From Methanosarcina sp. MTP4 (GTDB lineage: Archaea; Halobacteriota; Methanosarcinia; Methanosarcinales; Methanosarcinaceae): a stretch of 64,000 bases of DNA. The stretch is from assembly GCF_000970045.1 (NCBI RefSeq), contig NZ_CP009505.1, positions 2,170,001-2,234,000 on the forward strand, given 5' to 3'. The translations under genes and the position numbers were made by a program. Below, in pieces: positions 9,800 through 63,407 of the stretch; position 1 is the first letter of the stretch; each line of letters starts with the position of its first letter. Under the pieces are notes generated by a model that saw only the letters and a list, made by a program, of their open reading frames with translations, was not told the DNA's origin and searched no databases.

Positions 9800-10819
9800 T
9801 CAGAACCCTTTCTTTATCTTTAATTTCGGATCAAGTATCCTTTCCATATCCCTGCTTATGAATGCCAGACAGAGCAGGAGGAAAATAAGCATAAACAGCG
9901 GGGGCAACAGCCACCACTGCCAGTATGGAGTAAAATATATCGAACTGAAACCGGTTGCATGATTAAGCATCATCCCCCAGCTCTTGGAAGTAGGGTCTCC
10001 AAGCCCCAGGAAGGCAAGCCCCGCTTCGGCTATGATTGCATGGGAGGATATGCCGATGATGAGCACAAGCAGAACAGGCATGACTTCTGGAAAGATATGC
10101 CTCCAGAGCAGGTAGAATGGTTTTGCCCCGTAATTCCGGGCGGCAATAATGTAGCTGTTCTTCTTTAAAAACAGTGTCTGGGAACGCGCAATGCGTGCGG
10201 GTTTGGCCCAGCTGAAAAGAAAGAGGATAAGAATTACGTTAAGAATACTCGGTCCGAGAAAAGCGGATATTACAATCAGGAGAGGAAAACTCGGAAGAGC
10301 CATTGTCACGTCAATTACCCTCATCAGCCCCTGGTCAACGTACCCTCCAATATACCCGGCAAGTATTCCGATAGCTCCTCCCCCAAAACCTGCCGCAAAA
10401 CCTACTGCAAGCCCTATTGTAAGGCTCATTCTTGCACCGTAACATATTTGTGACCAGATATCCATACCAAGTTCATCGGTTCCGAGTATGTGTCCGGGCC
10501 CGGGAGCTTCAAGGGAATCCCCTGTGATTTTCTGAGGAGGATGCATTGTTATCACAGGAGCAAAAACTGCCATTAAAACGATACAGGTAATGCCAAGGAT
10601 CCCAATTTTACCTTCAGTACTGAACCTGGAGAATGTCCCGGTCATGATACTGAACTTCGAAAATATCCTGGCTATAACACTAAATTTAGAGGATGTCTTA
10701 TCTACAGTACTAAATTTAGGAAATTTCCTGGCTATACTGCTGAGAATTCCGTTAATATTTAAAGCCTGAATAAGTGAGAGTATTCCGGCGTTTCCATAGG
10801 CAGCAATATCCTTTATCAT
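9800..10819 (-). CDS. ABC importer permease, DppC/NikC type, with N-terminal tandem repeats
   Basis: This 339-residue permease has the OppC-like N domain and a BPD_transp_1 region with the EAA-type loop (ARNYGAKPFYLLWRHIFPE) that contacts the ATPase. About six membrane helices are visible. Before the first helix lies an unusual cytoplasmic tail of about 75 residues, with four 10-residue repeats of the form KFSxxxxxFS at about 35-72 (30-bp DNA repeats, 10620-10740). Such a tail is not normal in DppC. Its start overlaps the stop of the upstream permease gene by four bases. Function: solute import with the neighbouring subunits. Confidence 0.92.
   Translation of the reverse strand: MIKDIAAYGNAGILSLIQALNINGILSSIARKFPKFSTVDKTSSKFSVIARIFSKFSIMTGTFSRFSTEGKIGILGITCIVLMAVFAPVITMHPPQKITGDSLEAPGPGHILGTDELGMDIWSQICYGARMSLTIGLAVGFAAGFGGGAIGILAGYIGGYVDQGLMRVIDVTMALPSFPLLIVISAFLGPSILNVILILFLFSWAKPARIARSQTLFLKKNSYIIAARNYGAKPFYLLWRHIFPEVMPVLLVLIIGISSHAIIAEAGLAFLGLGDPTSKSWGMMLNHATGFSSIYFTPYWQWWLLPPLFMLIFLLLCLAFISRDMERILDPKLKIKKGF
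10618..10742 (-). repeat. 30-bp in-frame tandem repeat in dppC-like gene
   Basis: Four diverged 30-bp units encode 10-residue repeats ahead of the first membrane helix. The units differ at many third positions, so the array is older than the perfect arrays elsewhere in the window. Confidence 0.75.
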
Positions 10820-11827: not shown

Positions 11828-11983
11828 CATTTGCTGTTAACTTACTCTTCGATCATTTGCTGTTAACTTACTCTTCGATCATTTGCTGTTAACTTACTCT
11901 TCGATCATTTGCTGTTAACTTATTTTCCGATCCTCTGGCGTTACGTTTCTATCCGATCCTCTGCCGTTAACTTCCCAGGCCAT
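11828..11983 (-). repeat. 26-bp tandem repeat across the methyltransferase stop codon
   Basis: Six units start at 11828, 11854, 11880, 11906, 11932 and 11958. The first three are nearly identical (CATTTGCTGTTAACTTACTC and so on); the last two are diverged and lie inside the coding end of the methyltransferase. The stop codon (11915-11917) falls in the fourth unit. Since 26 is not a multiple of 3, unit gain or loss would change the protein tail. Confidence 0.9.
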
Positions 11984-15734: not shown

Positions 15735-16222
15735 AGGCATAGGATGTTTTTCGCAAACCTGCATGAACTTCAATATACTTGTTTGAAAAGAGAACTATAT
15801 AATTTTTTTCAATCATTGAGATATTATAAAAAGAAAGACATAAAGATACTTTTCAGACCTGCAACGATTTACCTGCAGCAATTTACTTCCCGACTATTAG
15901 CCAGCAAAAATTTATATCACGACACCGGATAATTCTATACTGGGGAGTACGAGATACGTTTCGGTATAGTTGAGCCAGCAGAGTTGCACCAGCAGAGTTG
16001 CACCAGCAGAGTTGCACCAGCAGAGTTGCACCAGCAGAGTTGCACCAGCAGAGTTGCGATGAAATCGCAACAGTACGCTGTCCGTTTCGCTTCGCTCAAG
16101 CGGACTTATGGACGTATTTATTGATTTACAACATAAGCGGACGTATTTATTGATTTACAACATTTTTGAATAACATTTTCGAACAACATTTCCGAACCAC
16201 TTTCTACAGAGGGGGAATTAGA
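15735..16222. other. Spacer with 14-bp and 29-bp repeats
   Basis: No gene is seen. It contains the 14-bp array at 15976-16059, a hairpin-rich stretch (GTTTCGCTTCGCTCAAGC, about 16084-16101), and two copies of GGACGTATTTATTGATTTAC about 29 bases apart (16110-16158). Confidence 0.5.
15976..16059 (+). repeat. 14-bp tandem repeat, 6 units
   Basis: The unit CAGCAGAGTTGCAC repeats six times with almost no variation; the last unit ends GA. It is noncoding and lies about 160 bases upstream of the pirin gene. The purity suggests recent expansion. Confidence 0.92.
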
Positions 16223-22721: not shown

Positions 22722-22733
22722 GGAAGGATGGAG

Positions 22734-24212
22734 ATGACTCTTAAAAAAATAAAATTGTTATTCAAAATACCGACATCTAATAAGTCGAAATCCAAAATAC
22801 CGATATCCAATAAAGCAACGTTCAAAGCACCGATATTCAGGATGTTTGCTGTCTTTACCGTACTGTTAATCGGCCTCTCTTTATTCAGTTCCCCGGCCTT
22901 TGCGCTGGGCGTCCAGGATAAAGGCCTGACAATCGACCTGCTCAACCAGGACCCGGACCCTGTTAAGCCCGGAGACGTCCTTGAAGTCAGGCTCTCGGTC
23001 CAGAACACGGGGTATGATGAACAGGAAAACTGCATCGTAACAATAGAACCCGATTATCCATTCAGGGCCCTCCCGGGAGAGGAACTTTCCAAAAACATCG
23101 GGACGCTGGGAAAACGCTATGAAGACGACCGCGGGAAGGTCGTAAAATTCAAACTTGGGGTCGAAAATGACGTAAATGAAGGAAAATACCCCCTCAAGGT
23201 CTACCTCTACACCGGGGGCAGCAAAAACGGGCTATCCCTTACAAAAGACCTCATAATCGACATTGACAGCGAGTCCAACGCGGAAATCGAGTTCATAAGC
23301 GTTGAGAAAATGGTGCCCGGGACAAAGACGGACCTTACTTTCGGGATCAAGAACGTGGGAAATTCTCCCCTGAAAAATGCAATGTTTTCCTGGGAATGCA
23401 CGGATGACCTGATCCTGCCTGTCGGCTCAAGTAACGTCAAGCACATCAACCTGATCGACATAGGAGAGACCGCAAACGTCAGTTTTGACGTCCTTACCAA
23501 CGTGAACACAAGACCCGGGCTCTACAAACTGGACATGGTCCTTACCTACGACGACATCGAAGAACTCCAGACGATTACGGAAGCAGGCACCGTGGAAAAC
23601 CAGAAGCGAAAAGAGATAAAGAGCAAAGCCGGAATCTACATCGGAGGCACCACGGACTTCGACATCGCTTTTATGGAAAGAAGCCCGACCGGAGCCTACA
23701 CCTTTTCGGTCTCGAACATCGGGAACAACGGCGCAAACTCGGTCAAGATTTCCGTACCCTCCCAGGCTAATTGGAGCGTCACTGACGGGTCCAATTCCGT
23801 AATCCTCGGAAACCTGCAAAAAGGAGACTACACCATTGCCGACTTCAACCTCAAGCCCGCAGAAATAGGGGAAGACCTGCCCATTAAATTCGAAATAAGC
23901 TACACTTCCAGCGACGGCATGAGGCAGGTCGAGGAAAAGGAGCTGAACCTTTATTCCTCACCTTTCACCCTCTCCTCAGAATCAAAGCAGCCCGGGGAAA
24001 ATAGCAGTTCAGGCTTCTTTTCATACAAACTTTTGTTCCTGGTCCTTGCGGGAGCTGCAGCTGTCCTGGTTTACAGGAGGCAGCAGAAAAAGAATGCAGA
24101 GAAAGGGAAAACGGATGATGGGGAGATGGAAAAAAGGAATATTGACGAAGTGGATACGGAAGGAAGGAAAATAGACGAAGCAGAGATGGACAAAAAGCAG
24201 AAAGAAGAGTAA
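22734..24212 (+). CDS. NEW3/CARDB-like membrane-anchored extracellular protein of the ABC operon
   Basis: This 492-residue protein has a signal or anchor helix (MFAVFTVLLIGLSLFSSPAFA), followed by two to three Ig-like domains of the NEW3/CARDB type (VKPGDVLEVRLSVQNTG; TFGIKNVGNSPL; FSVSNIGNNGANSVKISVP). A C-terminal helix (LLFLVLAGAAAVLVY) and a charged cytoplasmic tail follow. Before the first helix lie about 2.5 copies of a 10-residue repeat (FKIPTSNKSK/SKIPISNKAT). ATG at 22734 has AGGAAGG six bases upstream. Sitting between ATPase and permease, it probably acts as the extracytoplasmic partner of the exporter, as in other methanogen MacB-type loci. Confidence 0.87.
   Translation: MTLKKIKLLFKIPTSNKSKSKIPISNKATFKAPIFRMFAVFTVLLIGLSLFSSPAFALGVQDKGLTIDLLNQDPDPVKPGDVLEVRLSVQNTGYDEQENCIVTIEPDYPFRALPGEELSKNIGTLGKRYEDDRGKVVKFKLGVENDVNEGKYPLKVYLYTGGSKNGLSLTKDLIIDIDSESNAEIEFISVEKMVPGTKTDLTFGIKNVGNSPLKNAMFSWECTDDLILPVGSSNVKHINLIDIGETANVSFDVLTNVNTRPGLYKLDMVLTYDDIEELQTITEAGTVENQKRKEIKSKAGIYIGGTTDFDIAFMERSPTGAYTFSVSNIGNNGANSVKISVPSQANWSVTDGSNSVILGNLQKGDYTIADFNLKPAEIGEDLPIKFEISYTSSDGMRQVEEKELNLYSSPFTLSSESKQPGENSSSGFFSYKLLFLVLAGAAAVLVYRRQQKKNAEKGKTDDGEMEKRNIDEVDTEGRKIDEAEMDKKQKEE
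22755..22842 (+). repeat. 30-bp in-frame repeat ahead of the signal helix
   Basis: Units beginning TTCAAAATACCGACATC, TCCAAAATACCGATATCC and TTCAAAGCACCGATATTC are 30 bp apart and code for 10-residue repeats. They lie immediately before the first hydrophobic helix. Confidence 0.75.
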
Positions 24213-26006: not shown

Positions 26007-26198
26007 AATAGTAAGAAATTGACTGAAAATAATAGTAAGAAATTGACTGAAAATAATAGTAAGAAATTGACTGAAAATAATAGTAAGAAAGTGACTGAAA
26101 ATAATAGTAAGAAAGTGACTGAAAATAATAGTAAGAAAGTGACTGAAAATAATAGTAAGAAAGTGACTGAAAATAATAGTAAGAAAGTGACTGAAAAT
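26007..26198 (+). repeat. 24-bp tandem repeat, 8 units
   Basis: The unit AATAGTAAGAAATTGACTGA plus AAAT repeats eight times; the first three units have AAATTG and the last five AAAGTG, so a variant spread by stepwise duplication. The 24-bp period leaves frames open on both strands, but no Shine-Dalgarno or start supports translation. Confidence 0.92.
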
Positions 26199-26217
26199 AT
26201 CTGGATACTAAAATATC

Positions 26218-28677: not shown

Positions 28678-29268
28678 ATGGAAACAAGAATGAAGACGAA
28701 AATGAAGACAAAAGAAATGGCAGAAGGGAAGATAGAAGAGAAAACAGGATCGAGGACAGCAGGATCAAGGACAGAGGTGAAGACGGAAAAAAAGACAAAA
28801 ATCTTACCCCCAACAATCTTCTGGCTCCTTGTCCTGGCTTCTGCAGGAACCTCCCTGTCAACCCGTTTTATTTACCCGGAAGGACAGCTAGCAGCCTCTC
28901 TTCCATATTCGGAAAACTTTGGGATAATCGCCGGAGGCCTGCTGATCGCCGCTGGTATCTCGTTAAACATCTGGACCGATCTGATCTTTAAAAAAGAAGC
29001 GACAACTGTCAAACCTCACGAAGAGCCTTCAAAGCTCATAACTGCCGGGCCTTTCCGGATCAGCCGCCACCCAATGTACCTCGGGATGACTCTGATACTC
29101 TTCGGGCTGCCCCTGATTTTTTCGGGTCCCGCAACAGCATTCGTCTTTCCGGTAGCTTTTGCAATGGCAATGGAACTGTTATTCATCCCCTTTGAAGAAG
29201 CAAACTGCGAGAAAATTTTCAAAAATAGTTATATTGATTATAAAAAAGATGTCAGGAGGTGGATTTAA
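28678..29268 (+). CDS. Isoprenylcysteine carboxyl methyltransferase-like membrane protein (PEMT/ICMT family)
   Basis: This 196-residue integral membrane methyltransferase has a basic N-terminal tail of about 45 residues with small internal repeats (MKTK, SRTAGSRTE), three to four helices, and the C-terminal PEMT/ICMT signature: GPFRISRHPMYLGMTLILFG, then FEEANCEKIF and YKKDVRRWI. These residues bind SAM and the methyl acceptor. The archaeal substrate is unknown, as there are no CAAX proteins; lipid or small isoprenoid thiols are possible. ATG at 28678 has GGAGGG upstream; an in-frame ATG at 28654 lacks one. Confidence 0.88.
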   Translation: METRMKTKMKTKEMAEGKIEEKTGSRTAGSRTEVKTEKKTKILPPTIFWLLVLASAGTSLSTRFIYPEGQLAASLPYSENFGIIAGGLLIAAGISLNIWTDLIFKKEATTVKPHEEPSKLITAGPFRISRHPMYLGMTLILFGLPLIFSGPATAFVFPVAFAMAMELLFIPFEEANCEKIFKNSYIDYKKDVRRWI

Positions 29269-40185: not shown

Positions 40186-40364
40186 GGAATTGCATTCTAA
40201 AACTAAAAGGATTTAACCAAGAATCAATGTACTGAAAAACCCTTAAAGGGCGATCCATAAGGCCTGGTCCCAATTTAACGTAGTTTTAATGCATTTTAGT
40301 TCTGTACTCATTAGTCCTTACTCAATTATTTACTACTTATTTGATTTAGTTACTTATTCAAGTT

Positions 40365-40508
40365 AATTTACTTACTCAATTTACTTACTTAATTTACTTA
40401 CTTAATTTACTTACTTAATTTACTTACTTAATTTACTTACTTAATTTACTTACTTAATTTACTTACTTAATTTACTTACTTAATTTACTTACTTAATTTA
40501 CTTACTCA
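40365..40508 (+). repeat. 13-bp tandem repeat, about 11 units
   Basis: The unit AATTTACTTACTT repeats about eleven times; the edge units have CTCA variants. The flanking 100 bases on each side carry looser ACTTACTCAAGTT copies. Noncoding. Confidence 0.92.
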
Positions 40509-43115: not shown

Positions 43116-44333
43116 ATGTTCTGGAGCAAGGACGACATTGTAGGAAGATTGAGTCAGATTCCGCACACACTTGAGGACATCTCAATAGATATCTTCAAGG
43201 GAGTTCCTTCAAAAAATGATTTCCTGCACAGGGTGAACCTTTCGAGAGAAAACTGCCCTGATGCACCGTACGTTTGCAGGAAGTTATACAAAAACGTAAA
43301 CATAGAAAGGGAATTAATGCACCCCTACATGGACGGGGCCCTTTCCAATGAATTTGCTATCCGCCAGACCTCTTATCGCTTTATGCTGCCTTACGACATC
43401 CTCAGAGACGGCATCAGAAAGGAGTACCGGGTCATCCAGCCCGCCGACCTGAAAGCAAGGTTTCCCATGGCTTACGAAAGGCTTCTGGAAATTAAAAATA
43501 AGTCCCTGCTTGATGCAGAGGAGCTTGATTCAGGAAGACTTGATTCAGGAAGACTTGATTCAGGAAGACTTGATTCAGGAAGACTTGATTCAGGAAGACT
43601 TGATTCAGGAAGACTTGATTCAGGAAGACTTGATTCAGGAAGACTTGATTCAGGAAGACTTGATTCGGCTGACTACTACCAGCTTGAGGAAGAAAAAATC
43701 CTCAGTTACACAGGCACCCCTAAAATTATCATTACCGACCACTACCGTTTCCAGGCTTCCTATGATGCAAGCGGAGACCATGTTTTTGCGGACGGGATCG
43801 GAATTGTTCTTGGCGATCCCGGCCTTTACCACTACATCACGGCAGTGCTAAACTGCTCCATATCACGGGCCTTCCCTGAAATCTGGAAACGTGAAAAATT
43901 GAGGACAGACAGCAACCTTTACCCAAAAATGCTTAAGCGATTTCCCATAGCATTCCCGAAAGACGAAAGCACAGAGATCCTGATAAGCACAATCTCCCGC
44001 TACCTGATTTACCTGAACCGGCAAAAATATATTTCAAGCGTCTGCTCCCTGGCATGCTACCAGGAACTCATCGACTTCTACAAAAGAATTGCAGACCTCT
44101 TGATTCTGGACATCTACCTTACAAACGACCTGGACCCGAGATTCATGGAAATCCTCTCCGAAAACATTACCCCCACAGAAGAAGAGTTTGAGTACAGCAG
44201 CAACATGAGCCTCATGATTGCTATGCAGGGCATAAAGAAAAGCATCCTTGATTCCCCCGATTTCCGGAAATGCAAGTTCAACAACGAGTTCACGAATATC
44301 CTGGCTACCATAAAAAACAATGGTGTGTGGTAA
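43116..44333 (+). CDS. Orphan TaqI/Eco57I-like target-recognition domain protein
   Basis: This 405-residue protein resembles only the C-terminal specificity part of type IIG or Eco57I-like restriction-modification enzymes: DISIDIFKGVPSKNDFLHRV at the start, ADLKARFPMAYERLLEIKN, then KIIITDHYRFQASYDASG and FADGIGIVLGDPGLYHYITAVLNCSIS. No SAM motif or NPPY catalytic motif is present. Between residues 136 and 181 it carries nine LDSGR repeats. ATG at 43116 has AGGGG six bases upstream (an ATG at 43101 is also in frame). It may be a leftover of a larger enzyme or a separate specificity subunit; relic sequence lies upstream. Confidence 0.75.
   Translation: MFWSKDDIVGRLSQIPHTLEDISIDIFKGVPSKNDFLHRVNLSRENCPDAPYVCRKLYKNVNIERELMHPYMDGALSNEFAIRQTSYRFMLPYDILRDGIRKEYRVIQPADLKARFPMAYERLLEIKNKSLLDAEELDSGRLDSGRLDSGRLDSGRLDSGRLDSGRLDSGRLDSGRLDSGRLDSADYYQLEEEKILSYTGTPKIIITDHYRFQASYDASGDHVFADGIGIVLGDPGLYHYITAVLNCSISRAFPEIWKREKLRTDSNLYPKMLKRFPIAFPKDESTEILISTISRYLIYLNRQKYISSVCSLACYQELIDFYKRIADLLILDIYLTNDLDPRFMEILSENITPTEEEFEYSSNMSLMIAMQGIKKSILDSPDFRKCKFNNEFTNILATIKNNGVW
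43521..43666 (+). repeat. 15-bp in-frame tandem repeat, 9 units (LDSGR)
   Basis: The unit CTTGATTCAGGAAGA repeats nine times with no change and ends in CTTGATTCGG. The exact 15-bp period keeps the frame, so unit number can vary without loss of the gene. The purity shows recent growth. Confidence 0.95.
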
Positions 44334-47378: not shown

Positions 47379-47449
47379 CACACAACCCCCACAAAGCAAA
47401 AATCATTCTTTATGGACACTTTTTATCCCTTATCTCAAACAATTCAGTA

Positions 47450-47516
47450 TCGAAGTTTAGTATCGAATTTTAGTATCGAATTTTAGTATCGAATTTTAGT
47501 ATCGAATTTTAGTATC
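47450..47516 (-). repeat. 13-bp tandem repeat across the response-regulator stop codon
   Basis: GAATTTTAGTATC occurs about five times. On the minus strand it reads GATACTAAAATTC, and the gene's last codons (Asp-Thr-Lys-Ile-Arg-Tyr-stop) are made of it. The array continues about 40 bases past the stop (47496-47498). Confidence 0.9.
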
Positions 47517-53330: not shown

Positions 53331-56300
53331 TCATTTCTTTCTTCTGGAAGAGCTAAGCAACAGAAGCACCACAAAAATAAAAACCAGCCCTGTGAAAGCC
53401 GGAGCTTCGGAAATAAAACTTTTAACTGGTTCGGGAATAAAATCTTCAACCGGGCCAAGAATAGATTCGGGATTAAAGCTTTCAACGGATTCCCGGGTCC
53501 CTTTTGAAGAAAAAGGAGAGTCTGAAGCCTTTACGTCGAGGCTCAGGGAATCATGCTGGGAGTAGGTTTTGTCCTCCTCAAAAGAGTAGAAGACATCCGC
53601 TTCAACGGTGTGTTTTCCTTCTTCATTGCCAATCATTTCAAGGGAGATGGTCCTGACATCACTGCCGGGATCAAGCGTATACTTGGCCTGATACATTCCC
53701 CCACCGCTTGTGACAAAATATGAACCCGAAACCGAGACCCCGCTTGGAGGCCTGACAACGAGCTGTACGTTCATTTTTTTGCCTCCGAGAGGGTTCATCA
53801 CCCCCAGGTCGAAAACCGCAGTTTCCCCTACATTGAGCTCTTTTTTAGTGCACTGGAAGGCTACTGACGGGCCTTTCTCGGAAACTTCCAGGGGGATTTC
53901 TTTGTGGTTTTTGTGTTCATTTTCATCGAGGTCAGAGGCTTTGATTTCTATCAGGTGGTCCCCTGCCGACAGAGGCCCCATAACGGTTTTGTAAGCCCCT
54001 TCCTCATGGAAGGTATCTATCAAGGTTCCGTCAATTTCTACCCGGACTGTTTTAATCCCGCTTTCATCCCTGACGAAGAAGTCCAGTTCAAGCTCTTCCC
54101 CGTCCTCGAGAATGGAATCTTCGTCCCCTATTTCGGAAATCCCGGAAACTTCTATCGTGGGAGCCCTGGGGTCTTCCTGCTTCAGGGCCAGGGTGTAAAA
54201 ATCACCCCTGTTTCCCACGTGTATCTGCCCTTCGGTCGGGTAATATGTTTCTTTCTCAACCCTGACCATCACATCACTTTCCTGAATCATTCGGACTTCA
54301 AGGACCCCTTCAAGGTCAGTAGAACCTGTAAAATTGTTCCCGATAAAAACTTCAGCATTGCTGACAGGCTGCCCGAAAGAGTCTTCCACGTTCAAAGTCA
54401 GGGGAACTTTTGCACAGACTATTTCCATTTTAACGCCTGTTAATTCATCATACCCCATTTCCACCTCTTTCATCGATTCAAAGTAATCGGGGTTCAGGAC
54501 GTTTACGATATGAGTTTCTCCCTGGGCAGCTTCGCTGCGGATAAAGCCTTCCTGATCGGTGGACCCGATAAACGTATTGTCAAGATAAACTTCAACCCCT
54601 TCCACCGGCTCCCCGGTACTTTCATCCGCGACCGAAATATCCAGTTTCCCGGAACTCCGGATTTTCTCGACCTGTACCGTGCCGGAAAAATCGTTGTTTG
54701 CCTCGCTTTCTTCCTCGACATACTCCGAATACCCGGCCTTATCCTTCATATCAATATACGCCGTAACCTGATAGTCACCCCCTTCCAGATCCCGGGCAAG
54801 CTTCCAGGAAAATTCGTAGACAGCTGACTCTCCTGCCTGAAGGACAGGAACTTTCTCATAGCCGAGCCTGGAGTCTTCAACATACAGACAGATGTAAAAA
54901 TCTTTTCCCGAACTCAGGCTGCCATGGTTCCCGTACTTTACGGAAAAAGTAACCTCATCTTCGGTTTTCGGGCTTGCAGGGTCCCAGGTAATTTCTTCAA
55001 TTACTAAATCAGGTCCTCCGTCACTTCCGGGTTCTTCCTCACCCTCAGGTTCTTCCTTACTCTCAGGTTCTTCCTTACTCTCAGGTTCTTCCTTACTCTC
55101 AGGTTCTACCTCACTTTCGGGTTCTACCTCACCCTCTGATTCGTCCCCACTTTCGGGTTCTACCTCACCCTCAGGTTCTTCCTCACTTCCAGGTTCTCCC
55201 TCACTTCCAGGTTCTCCCTCACTTCCAGGTTCTCCCTCACTTCCAGGTTCTCCCTCACTTCCAGGTTCTCCCTCACTTCCAGGTTCTCCCTCACTTCCAG
55301 GTTCTCCCTCACTTCCAGGTTCTCCCTCACTTCCAGGTTCTTCCTTACTCTCAGGTTCTTCCTTACTCTCAGGTTCTCCCTCACTTCCAGGTTCTTCCTT
55401 ACTCTCAGGTTCTACCTCACTTTCAGGTTCTACCTCACTTTCAGGTTCTACCTCACCCTCTGATTCGTCCCCACTTTCAGGTTCATCCCCACTTTCAGGT
55501 TCGTCCTCACTTACCTGGAATGTCTTCGAGAAGTTGTTGTTCGTCTCATCGCTTTCCTCGATATCCCCTGAACCCTCGTTTTCGTCCTCCATGTCGATGT
55601 AAGCGGCAACCTTATGTTCACCTTCCAGAACATCCGGGAAATCCGGGTCAACAGTCCAGGTACATTCGCAAACAGAAGATTCTCCGGGCTGGAGATCATC
55701 AACCCATTCATAAGCGACCTGTGAATCATCGACATAGAGACAGATGCCAAAACCATTTCCCGCATTACGGGTCCCCCGGTTGCCGTACATTACTGAAAAA
55801 GTCACTTCGTCCCCGGTTTTCGGAAATTCCGGCATCCATAAGATATCTTCGACAAAGAGGTCGGGGTTTTCGTTTCCACTTACGAAAAAATAATCCTCAA
55901 AATCATTATTCGACTCATCAGTTTCGGGGACCTGGCCGGAGGCATCAATCACCGCAATAACGGAGTGTTCTCCGATTCCCATATCCTCCCCGATATGAAA
56001 TAAAAAATCAACACTTGCACCTTCCCCCGCATCAAGGGGAAACACATCCATCTCCCCTACCAGAGTTCCATCAACAAAAAGAAAAATTACAAAACTTTCA
56101 TTACTCAGGTTCCCGAGATTTGCATATTCCACAGTAAAAATCACGTCATCCCCTATCTGCGGCTCGGGAATATCCGGGACGATTCCCAGAACAGCCAGGT
56201 CAGCCTGTTCTTCGTCAGCTGCCACCGGAATGCAAAGCAAAAGCATCAAAAAAAACACGGAAAAGAGCAATTTTGAATTGGATTTTTTGAATTGAGATGT

Positions 56301-56627
56301 CTTGAATTGAGATGTTTTGAATTGAGATGTCTTGAATTGAGATGTCTTGAATTGAGATGTCTTGAATTGAGATGTCTTGAATTGAGATGTCTTGAATTGA
56401 GATGTCTTGAATTGAGATGTCTTGAATTGAGATGTCTTGAATTGAGATGTCTTGAATTGAGATGTCTTGAATTGAGATATATTGAATTGAGATATATTGA
56501 ATTGAGATGTCTTGAATTGAGATATATTGAATTGAGATATATTGAATTGAGATTTAACAGACCTGGCTGTGATGAAACGAGAGATGTTGATTAAAGATTT
56601 CTTGACCCTGGAATTCCTGAACAGCAA
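53331..56627 (-). CDS. Large CARDB-repeat surface protein with expanded N-terminal and acidic repeats
   Basis: This 1098-residue surface protein starts with about 18 copies of a 5-residue repeat (QFKTS/QFNIS), then a signal helix (LLFSVFFLMLLLCIPVAA). Two CARDB domains follow (ADLAVLGIVPDIPEPQIG..; PDLFVEDILWMPEFPKTG..), an acidic low-complexity linker of about 160 residues (EPGSEGE, EPESKEE), a third CARDB domain, two carboxypeptidase-regulatory-like domains (GKLDISVADESTGEPVEGV; VPLTLNVEDSFGQPVSNA) and Ig-like domains. It ends in a helix and RRKK. TTG at 56627 has GGGGGG upstream. An N-terminal tail before a signal peptide is odd. Confidence 0.85.
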   Translation of the reverse strand: MLFRNSRVKKSLINISRFITARSVKSQFNISQFNISQFKTSQFNISQFNISQFKTSQFKTSQFKTSQFKTSQFKTSQFKTSQFKTSQFKTSQFKTSQFKTSQFKTSQFKTSQFKKSNSKLLFSVFFLMLLLCIPVAADEEQADLAVLGIVPDIPEPQIGDDVIFTVEYANLGNLSNESFVIFLFVDGTLVGEMDVFPLDAGEGASVDFLFHIGEDMGIGEHSVIAVIDASGQVPETDESNNDFEDYFFVSGNENPDLFVEDILWMPEFPKTGDEVTFSVMYGNRGTRNAGNGFGICLYVDDSQVAYEWVDDLQPGESSVCECTWTVDPDFPDVLEGEHKVAAYIDMEDENEGSGDIEESDETNNNFSKTFQVSEDEPESGDEPESGDESEGEVEPESEVEPESEVEPESKEEPGSEGEPESKEEPESKEEPGSEGEPGSEGEPGSEGEPGSEGEPGSEGEPGSEGEPGSEGEPGSEGEPGSEEEPEGEVEPESGDESEGEVEPESEVEPESKEEPESKEEPESKEEPEGEEEPGSDGGPDLVIEEITWDPASPKTEDEVTFSVKYGNHGSLSSGKDFYICLYVEDSRLGYEKVPVLQAGESAVYEFSWKLARDLEGGDYQVTAYIDMKDKAGYSEYVEEESEANNDFSGTVQVEKIRSSGKLDISVADESTGEPVEGVEVYLDNTFIGSTDQEGFIRSEAAQGETHIVNVLNPDYFESMKEVEMGYDELTGVKMEIVCAKVPLTLNVEDSFGQPVSNAEVFIGNNFTGSTDLEGVLEVRMIQESDVMVRVEKETYYPTEGQIHVGNRGDFYTLALKQEDPRAPTIEVSGISEIGDEDSILEDGEELELDFFVRDESGIKTVRVEIDGTLIDTFHEEGAYKTVMGPLSAGDHLIEIKASDLDENEHKNHKEIPLEVSEKGPSVAFQCTKKELNVGETAVFDLGVMNPLGGKKMNVQLVVRPPSGVSVSGSYFVTSGGGMYQAKYTLDPGSDVRTISLEMIGNEEGKHTVEADVFYSFEEDKTYSQHDSLSLDVKASDSPFSSKGTRESVESFNPESILGPVEDFIPEPVKSFISEAPAFTGLVFIFVVLLLLSSSRRKK
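55020..55505 (-). repeat. Acidic coding repeats (EPGSEGE/EPESKEE)
   Basis: Units of about 18 bp (CCCTCACTTCCAGGTTCT on the plus strand) are repeated at least nine times in a row, flanked by variants ending TTCCTTACTC and TACCTCACTT. They code for the acidic linker between CARDB domains. Blocks of variants are themselves duplicated. Confidence 0.9.
56289..56560 (-). repeat. 15-bp in-frame tandem repeat, about 18 units, before the signal helix
   Basis: The unit GAATTGAGATGTCTT, with variant GAATTGAGATATATT, codes for QFKTS/QFNIS on the minus strand. It lies between the TTG start and the signal helix. The 15-bp period keeps the frame open. Confidence 0.93.
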
Positions 56628-56767
56628 TAACGATCCCCCCGAGAATAAGAAAGGAATCCGATTCTTCCTTTAAAGTTTTGAGCAGGCATTAAAAAATGAA
56701 AAATAGGGTTTACTTTTTCATCACCGATTTTTCAGCATTACGCGTTCATCTCATCTGTTCTTCAACA

Positions 56768-62059: not shown

Positions 62060-62160
62060 AAAGACGGAAAGGTAAAAACGGAAAGGTAAAAACGGAAAGG
62101 TAAAAACGGAACAGACAAAAACGGAAAGGTAAAAACGGAACAGACAAAAACGGAAAGGAT
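62060..62160 (+). repeat. Composite AAAACGGAA tandem repeat
   Basis: Two units alternate: AAAACGGAAAGGTA (14 bp) and AAAACGGAACAGAC (14-15 bp). About seven units are present in the order A-A-A-B-A-B-A. Noncoding. Confidence 0.85.
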
Positions 62161-62600
62161 CTCAGGGCAAGGCGAAGAGAGTATGTCCTCAGGTACAGCT
62201 GGCCATCTGTATGCTCCGTGGATCAAATATATCTTTCTTCTGCCATGTCCGGGACTTGATGTTTAATTTCAACAAATTCCAGAAAATTATTTGCCTGTAT
62301 AATTAAAGTCTTTTTTCACTTACTTTAATATTTCGATTTCGTTTTACTTTTCCCGGAATATTGTAGAAACTGGTGCGTTTTTTCCTGTAAATGCCCTGTT
62401 TTAGTTCATAAGTAGAGAAATCCGGCAAAAAAGCCAACTGTCGAAAGAAAGGATAATTTACTGCTTTTTGAGCCTGAAAGGCCTGGAAAATAAGGAGATT
62501 GGAACTGATAACAGTAAATATATATAAAAATTGACATGGCCGTATAGCTTCCAGACCTTGAGGGAATCTTTATTCTATCATCCATGATTGTTGTACTCTT

Positions 62601-62672
62601 ATGAATCTTAAGACGTTTATGAATCTTAAGACGTTTATGAATCTTAAGACGTTCATGAATTTTAAGACTTTC
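62601..62672 (+). repeat. 18-bp tandem repeat containing the start codon, 4 units
   Basis: ATGAATCTTAAGACGTTT occurs three times (the third ending GTTC), then a diverged ATGAATTTTAAGACTTTC. Each unit brings its own in-frame ATG, so the true start may be any of four positions. Confidence 0.93.
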
Positions 62673-63407
62673 ATCATTCTCTCGCTGGTCCTCACAGTTC
62701 TTGCAAGTTCAGGATGTTCTGGGTTTTATTCGGAAGGAGCCCAAAAGGAATCTACCGATTTTTCCCTCAATTCCTCCCCTGTAAAGTACGCCTCCGTTAA
62801 CGGCGTAGAGCTCGGGTACAGGGAGTTCGGTTCAGGAGAGCCCCTTCTGCTTATCATGGGGTTCGGAGGGACTATGGACATGTGGAATGCAACTTTTGTC
62901 GAGTGTCTGGCACAGGACTACAGGGTTATAAGCTACGATAACAGGGGGATAGGGTACTCTTCCGACAACGAGGAACCTTATTCCACGGAACTGATGGCAG
63001 GGGATGCTGCAGGCCTGCTTGATGCCCTCGAAATTCCGCAAGCCCATGTTTTAGGCACGTCTATGGGTGCCTCAATTGCCCAGGAAATGGCAATCAACCA
63101 TCCGGAAAAAGTGGATAAACTTATCCTCTCCTCGGCAGCTTACAGCGTAAGCGTCCCTGAAACATTCCTCCTGGAAAACCTGCTTCGGTCCTGTGCCGTA
63201 AATTCCGACCTGGACCCGGCAGTCCGGAAACAGGCAGATGCAAACCTGAAATGGAACGGCACTTACGAACACCTGCCTGAAATAAGGAGCAAGACCCTGC
63301 TTTTAGTCGGGACGGACGACGAATTCACACCTCCCTCAATCACTCTTGAGATTGCAGAAAAGCTGCCAGAGGCAGATTATATTGTATTCGAAGGAGCAAA
63401 GCACTGA
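62601..63407 (+). CDS. Lipoprotein alpha/beta hydrolase with N-terminal repeats, ended by an in-frame TGA
   Basis: This 268-residue extracellular esterase-like protein has four 6-residue repeats (MNLKTF) ahead of a lipoprotein signal (FIILSLVLTVLASSGC). The hydrolase fold follows: SGEPLLLIMGFGGTMDMW, nucleophile elbow GTSMGASIAQEMA (Ser), VGTDDEFTP (Asp) and EGAKH (His). The frame ends at TGA (63405-63407) right after the catalytic His. The next 30 codons, in the same frame to 63500, read GERFLPAEYSKAVLDFLRKG, the normal C-terminal helix of the family. So the stop looks like a late nonsense change, or read-through. Each repeat holds a possible ATG start. Confidence 0.8.
   Translation: MNLKTFMNLKTFMNLKTFMNFKTFIILSLVLTVLASSGCSGFYSEGAQKESTDFSLNSSPVKYASVNGVELGYREFGSGEPLLLIMGFGGTMDMWNATFVECLAQDYRVISYDNRGIGYSSDNEEPYSTELMAGDAAGLLDALEIPQAHVLGTSMGASIAQEMAINHPEKVDKLILSSAAYSVSVPETFLLENLLRSCAVNSDLDPAVRKQADANLKWNGTYEHLPEIRSKTLLLVGTDDEFTPPSITLEIAEKLPEADYIVFEGAKH

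Follow-up and report, generated by a model that had tools for sequence, protein, structure and literature searches.

The in-frame repeats that precede the first membrane segment of several proteins of Methanosarcina sp. MTP4 seem to be mostly an ordinary outcome of repeat slippage. Within the window analysed here, a stretch of 64,000 nucleotides of the chromosome, these repeats are probably variable-number tandem repeats generated by slippage or unequal recombination in an array-rich genome, the tail that leads up to the first membrane segment being among the few coding sites that tolerate them. The initial annotation had described four proteins with an in-frame repeat between the start codon and the first hydrophobic segment, and all four were confirmed: the internal similarity of the repeat exceeded that of 999 amino-acid shuffles in the CARDB-domain protein, the DppC-like permease, the NEW3/CARDB-like protein and the alpha/beta hydrolase (P = 0.001 each). 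A fifth gene with the same layout, overlooked at that stage, encodes a PEMT-like membrane protein (28678..29268, plus strand) with K/E-rich repeats (KMKTK, GSRTAGSRTEVKTEKKT) before the first helix (shuffle P 0.002). The four repeats had been characterized as all basic and containing Phe, Lys and Ser or Thr, which described them well except that the NEW3 unit lacks Phe and the QFNIS units of the CARDB protein are neutral. No unit sequence common to the four proteins was seen, and at all four loci both the number and the sequence of the units vary by species.

The CARDB-domain secreted protein (53331..56627, minus strand; Pfam CARDB 7.7e-41) has a putative TTG start at 56627, followed by a 15-bp array and then a signal-like segment (SNSKLLFSVFFLMLLLCIPVAA). 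The array was called by TRF at 56273..56553 on the minus strand (period 15, 18.8 copies, 95% matches), and its 18 whole units comprise 13 QFKTS, 4 QFNIS and 1 QFKKS; the QFKTS units are encoded by 12 copies of CAATTCAAGACATCT and one synonymous variant. At the same place, the orthologues carry shorter and different arrays (QLKTS, QFKPS, QLKKS x5; G003, G001, G002), and unit number ranges from about 3 to 18 across species, the orthologues having about 3-5 units, some with proline. A search of the genome with the array region returned only two other places, both weak matches. The same gene holds a second array at 55009-55512 (18-bp units, 28 copies), encoding an acidic linker rich in Glu, Pro, Gly and Ser (GEPGSE, EEPESK), and the stretch at 56627-56680, just 5' of the TTG, is nearly identical among three species (L188, L189) and may be a leader or promoter element.

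As the CARDB unit contains no stop in any of the three forward frames, its open frame alone is no proof of translation. The TTG at 56627 is the sole far-upstream in-frame start, and its conservation suggests that the array is translated, which we regard as likely from the comparison of sequences. Alternatively, some arrays might be untranslated 5' leaders, that is, noncoding satellites beside genes, with the true start of the CARDB gene located beyond its repeat and that of the hydrolase gene at the last of its repeated ATGs. Such a leader would agree with the three open frames of the CARDB unit and the upstream start being only a TTG, with substitutions between this TTG and the array that have no clear codon pattern (judged by eye), with the ATG found in each hydrolase unit, and with the many arrays that sit just upstream of genes. 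However, a CARDB start after the array would leave an n-region without positive charge, and arrays located 5' of first helices, window included, were open in frame in 12 cases, against 5 and 7 when the frame was shifted. Orthologues starting after the repeat had been named beforehand as evidence against the four in-frame repeats; for DppC and NEW3 this objection fails, with the starts in relatives lying upstream of the repeat. We consider it improbable that some of the arrays, those of CARDB and the hydrolase being the candidates, are untranslated leaders.

The long CARDB array might also form a pentapeptide-repeat-like beta-helix in the cytosol, as AlphaFold2 predicted continuous strands with block-mean pLDDT of 84-91 over the array and a weak Pentapeptide_4 match (1.1e-5) was obtained. 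However, confident false beta-solenoids are a documented AlphaFold2 artefact for perfect repeats (PMC11795689), and the predicted solenoid is of this type; the few units and the prolines of the orthologues also argue against it. Foldseek with the array model gave no match at E <= 0.001, and the Pfam Pentapeptide score of 25.8 bits was under the gathering cutoff of 38. We rejected this fold for the array as highly improbable.

The alpha/beta-hydrolase lipoprotein (62601..63407, plus strand; Abhydrolase_1 1.5e-28) begins at its very start with three MNLKTF units and one MNFKTF unit (TRF 62599-62668, 3.9 copies), which precede a lipobox-type signal, and every unit carries its own ATG. There are four units here and in G001, three in G003, and two in both G002 and Methanosarcina sp. 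KYL-1. In two Methanosarcina relatives (L076, L012), other 6-7-residue Leu/Lys periodic units occupy the same place (TLENLYILKRRL; SLKNLF), a hint of an old array whose sequence has been turning over. No units were found at the tail of hydrolase orthologues from more distant genera of the family. The Leu/Lys-rich periodicity of 6-7 residues is kept across two genera, which goes beyond what tolerance alone requires and counts against slippage with tolerance as the full explanation. Pre-signal tails of this archaeal lineage might instead be actively kept as basic tethers that are built of repeats and able to evolve: selection would retain a periodic Lys-rich tail ahead of the membrane segment while slippage replaces its sequence, and orthologues would thus have a repeat at the same place built of different units. 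We give this possibility a low probability.

Unit number might further serve as a contingency switch that tunes expression by phase variation, as at some bacterial gene starts, given that it differs between species and that each hydrolase unit adds a start codon. Changes of unit number between relatives are also known for bacterial VNTR and contingency loci in general. At contingency loci, units usually shift the frame or alter promoter spacing, whereas frame-neutral units dominate coding DNA here and no sign of frame-shifting units or of switching within a strain was seen with one genome per species. A switch of this kind is very unlikely.

The DppC-like ABC permease (9800..10819, minus strand; BPD_transp_1 3.9e-26) carries degenerate 30-bp/10-aa units from about residue 31 to 72 (KFPKFSTVDKTSSKFSVIARIFSKFSIMTGTFSRFS; roughly 3-4 units), and its TM1 lies at about residue 76. 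Most of the distant relatives have a single unit (FSKFSTEGK), whereas G002, G003 and G033 have two, G001 has three, and about four are present here. Because the start MIKDIA and the pre-repeat sequence are conserved in the relatives, the DppC repeat is very probably translated. In the NEW3/CARDB-like secreted protein (22728..24212, plus strand; CARDB + NPCBM_assoc), two degenerate 10-aa units lie at residues about 12-32 (KIPTSNKSKSKIPISNKAT). The start MxMTLKKI of its orthologues is conserved within the genus, and the repeat takes the form (KIPTL)x5 in G001 (L047) and is absent from G003 (L048).

Tandem arrays are abundant throughout this genome. In 1.6 Mb of stretches of the same chromosome, plus the window, we counted TRF arrays with a score of at least 40 and a unit of at least 5 bp, using gene calls and starts from our own simple script, which may be wrong in single cases. 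The density was about 1.3-1.38/kb in noncoding versus 0.24/kb in coding DNA, and an order-2 Markov null of noncoding DNA produced only 5 arrays per 134 kb. Arrays with at least 4 copies and a unit of at least 10 bp amounted to 112 per Mb of the sample. In four relatives of other genera, the noncoding density was apparently lower (0.34-0.78/kb, with 100 kb sampled each). Among the remaining arrays of the window, those at 11828-11973, 15975-16057, 26007-26199, 40363-40506, 43524-43666, 47446-47516 and 62060-62158 have units of 10-26 bp and are mostly intergenic, and the protein at 194-2887 has leucine-rich repeats that are encoded by 69-bp repeats at 271-937.

The periods of these arrays, sorted by remainder modulo 3, numbered 312/259/253 in intergenic and 221/16/15 in coding DNA. 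A period that is always a multiple of 3, as pointed out for the four proteins, thus holds for 221 of the 252 coding arrays versus 312 of 824 intergenic ones, and since intergenic periods are nearly evenly spread modulo 3 and coding periods skewed, it is explained by frame filtering. The multiple-of-3 period is a reading-frame filter only. A shared mutational cause, which the initial annotation had considered possible, is well supported by the very high array density genome-wide and by units that differ per locus and species.

An enrichment of repeats upstream of first membrane segments, proposed earlier as a genome-wide check, was found in the 1.6 Mb sample. The enrichment test with TRF only had low power, as degenerate repeats such as those of DppC and NEW3 fell below or near its threshold, and a test of amino-acid self-similarity was therefore added. 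Outside the window, repetitive segments at P <= 0.01 occurred in 9 of 85 pre-helix tails, in 2 of 308 soluble N-termini (Fisher P 3e-5) and in 9 of 308 soluble interiors (Fisher P 0.006). In-frame arrays outside the window reached 0.66/kb before the first helix, compared with 0.51/kb in intergenic DNA, 0.19/kb after the first helix and 0.18/kb in soluble proteins. The pre-helix value corresponds to 7 arrays in 10.7 kb, of which two share a gene at 205354 and another belongs to an ORF at 118679 that is rich in Phe and looks like an artefact. The comparison of this value with the intergenic rate, resting on 6-7 arrays, is compatible with a twofold excess or deficit.

Three genes with repeats from outside the window were compared with relatives, and in each of them unit number was variable: gene 253009 (TVKNRL-type units, one extra in G001), DppA2 at 3555939 (several extra KQGL units in G003, the same number in G001) and DppC2 at 3558898 (extra IQES-type units in G003). 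A count of indels between G000 and G001 orthologues gave one pre-helix event in 126 residues from 89 pairs, too few residues for power. In the second dpp/opp operon (L169 15939-20000; G000:C1:3555939 onward), both the binding protein and DppC have repeats in the pre-helix tail, and the ATPase (3559947) has a Lys/Asn/Glu-rich repeat insert near its N-terminus.

If the repeats had been selected for a common role in membrane targeting, repeated basic residues would lengthen and charge the n-region and tune SRP/Sec recognition or topology. The enrichment of repeats in pre-helix tails and the expansion of the same site by different units in different species would be expected from such a role, and acidic residues are nearly absent from three of the four tails (KR/DE: CARDB 23/0, NEW3 9/1, hydrolase 4/0; DppC 10/3). 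However, tails with repeats are only a little more basic than those without (KR 0.18 vs 0.14; DE 0.064 vs 0.083), and the PEMT-like and DppC2 tails are mixed in charge. The basic character of the repeat tails fits ordinary n-region composition. Moreover, the units are unrelated, some orthologues have one or no unit, and the in-frame array density of the tail is near that of intergenic DNA, which speaks against the shared functional role that had been suggested for the four proteins. A role in targeting, translation speed or length control is not needed to account for the observations, and we judge selection for targeting to be unlikely.

In the explanation that we prefer, slippage combined with tolerance, replication slippage or unequal recombination would create arrays everywhere in the genome, and those out of frame within genes would be removed. 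Folded coding sequence would reject most arrays, and the cytosolic tail that leads to the first membrane segment, being unstructured and loosely constrained, would accept those that stay in frame about as often as they occur in intergenic DNA. Units that leave the tail unstructured and mostly basic or neutral would persist, their number shifting between species. We infer slippage as the mutation and near-neutrality as the regime, constrained only by the composition that n-regions normally have.

The richness of Methanosarcina in tandem repeats is already known, its counts of short-unit satellites being the highest among the archaea tabulated in a survey (Satellites in the prokaryote world, 2019, PMC6749651). 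The satellites described there resemble ours in belonging to the same archaeal family, in their many arrays with 10-30 bp units and species-specific sequences, and in long coding units that are multiples of 3; the 112 arrays per Mb found here are of the same order as the 7-89 per Mb that another caller gave for species of Methanosarcina. Against the at least four head-to-tail copies named in that survey, the CARDB array has 18.8, and the hydrolase (3.9), DppC and NEW3 repeats are below four copies or degenerate; satellites being mostly locus- and species-specific agrees with CARDB units that differ in every relative. In contrast to our analysis, the available part of the survey contains neither a concentration before signals or first membrane segments nor a comparison of units in orthologous tails (PMC6749651).

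Also known are the in-frame amino-acid tandem repeats (aaTRs) found in Borg elements, where secreted and membrane proteins are enriched in them (PMC9879509). They share with the present arrays their pervasiveness, the restriction to in-frame units within genes and not in intergenic DNA, the enrichment in secreted and membrane proteins, the sometimes N-terminal position and the fast turnover. However, Borg arrays lie on extrachromosomal elements, consist of nearly perfect repeats and have been argued to be strongly selected (PMC9879509), whereas the arrays here are chromosomal, the window lying inside a single 4.21 Mb contig of a genome that is 99.91% complete, are often degenerate, and have rates that fit tolerance. 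Our search for literature on repeats in signal n-regions or on their concentration before membrane segments, which covered journals mostly other than subscription ones, found nothing relevant, and a concentration of repeats in the tail that leads into the first membrane segment may be new.

These results allow mutation and selection to be separated: intergenic DNA gives the raw array rate, the pre-helix tail has nearly the same rate of in-frame arrays, and other coding sequence has about a third of it. They advise caution in inferring function, or AlphaFold2 beta-solenoids, from such repeats, and gene callers may misplace starts at repeat-bearing loci. For these archaea, the n-region tail would be nearly free sequence space.
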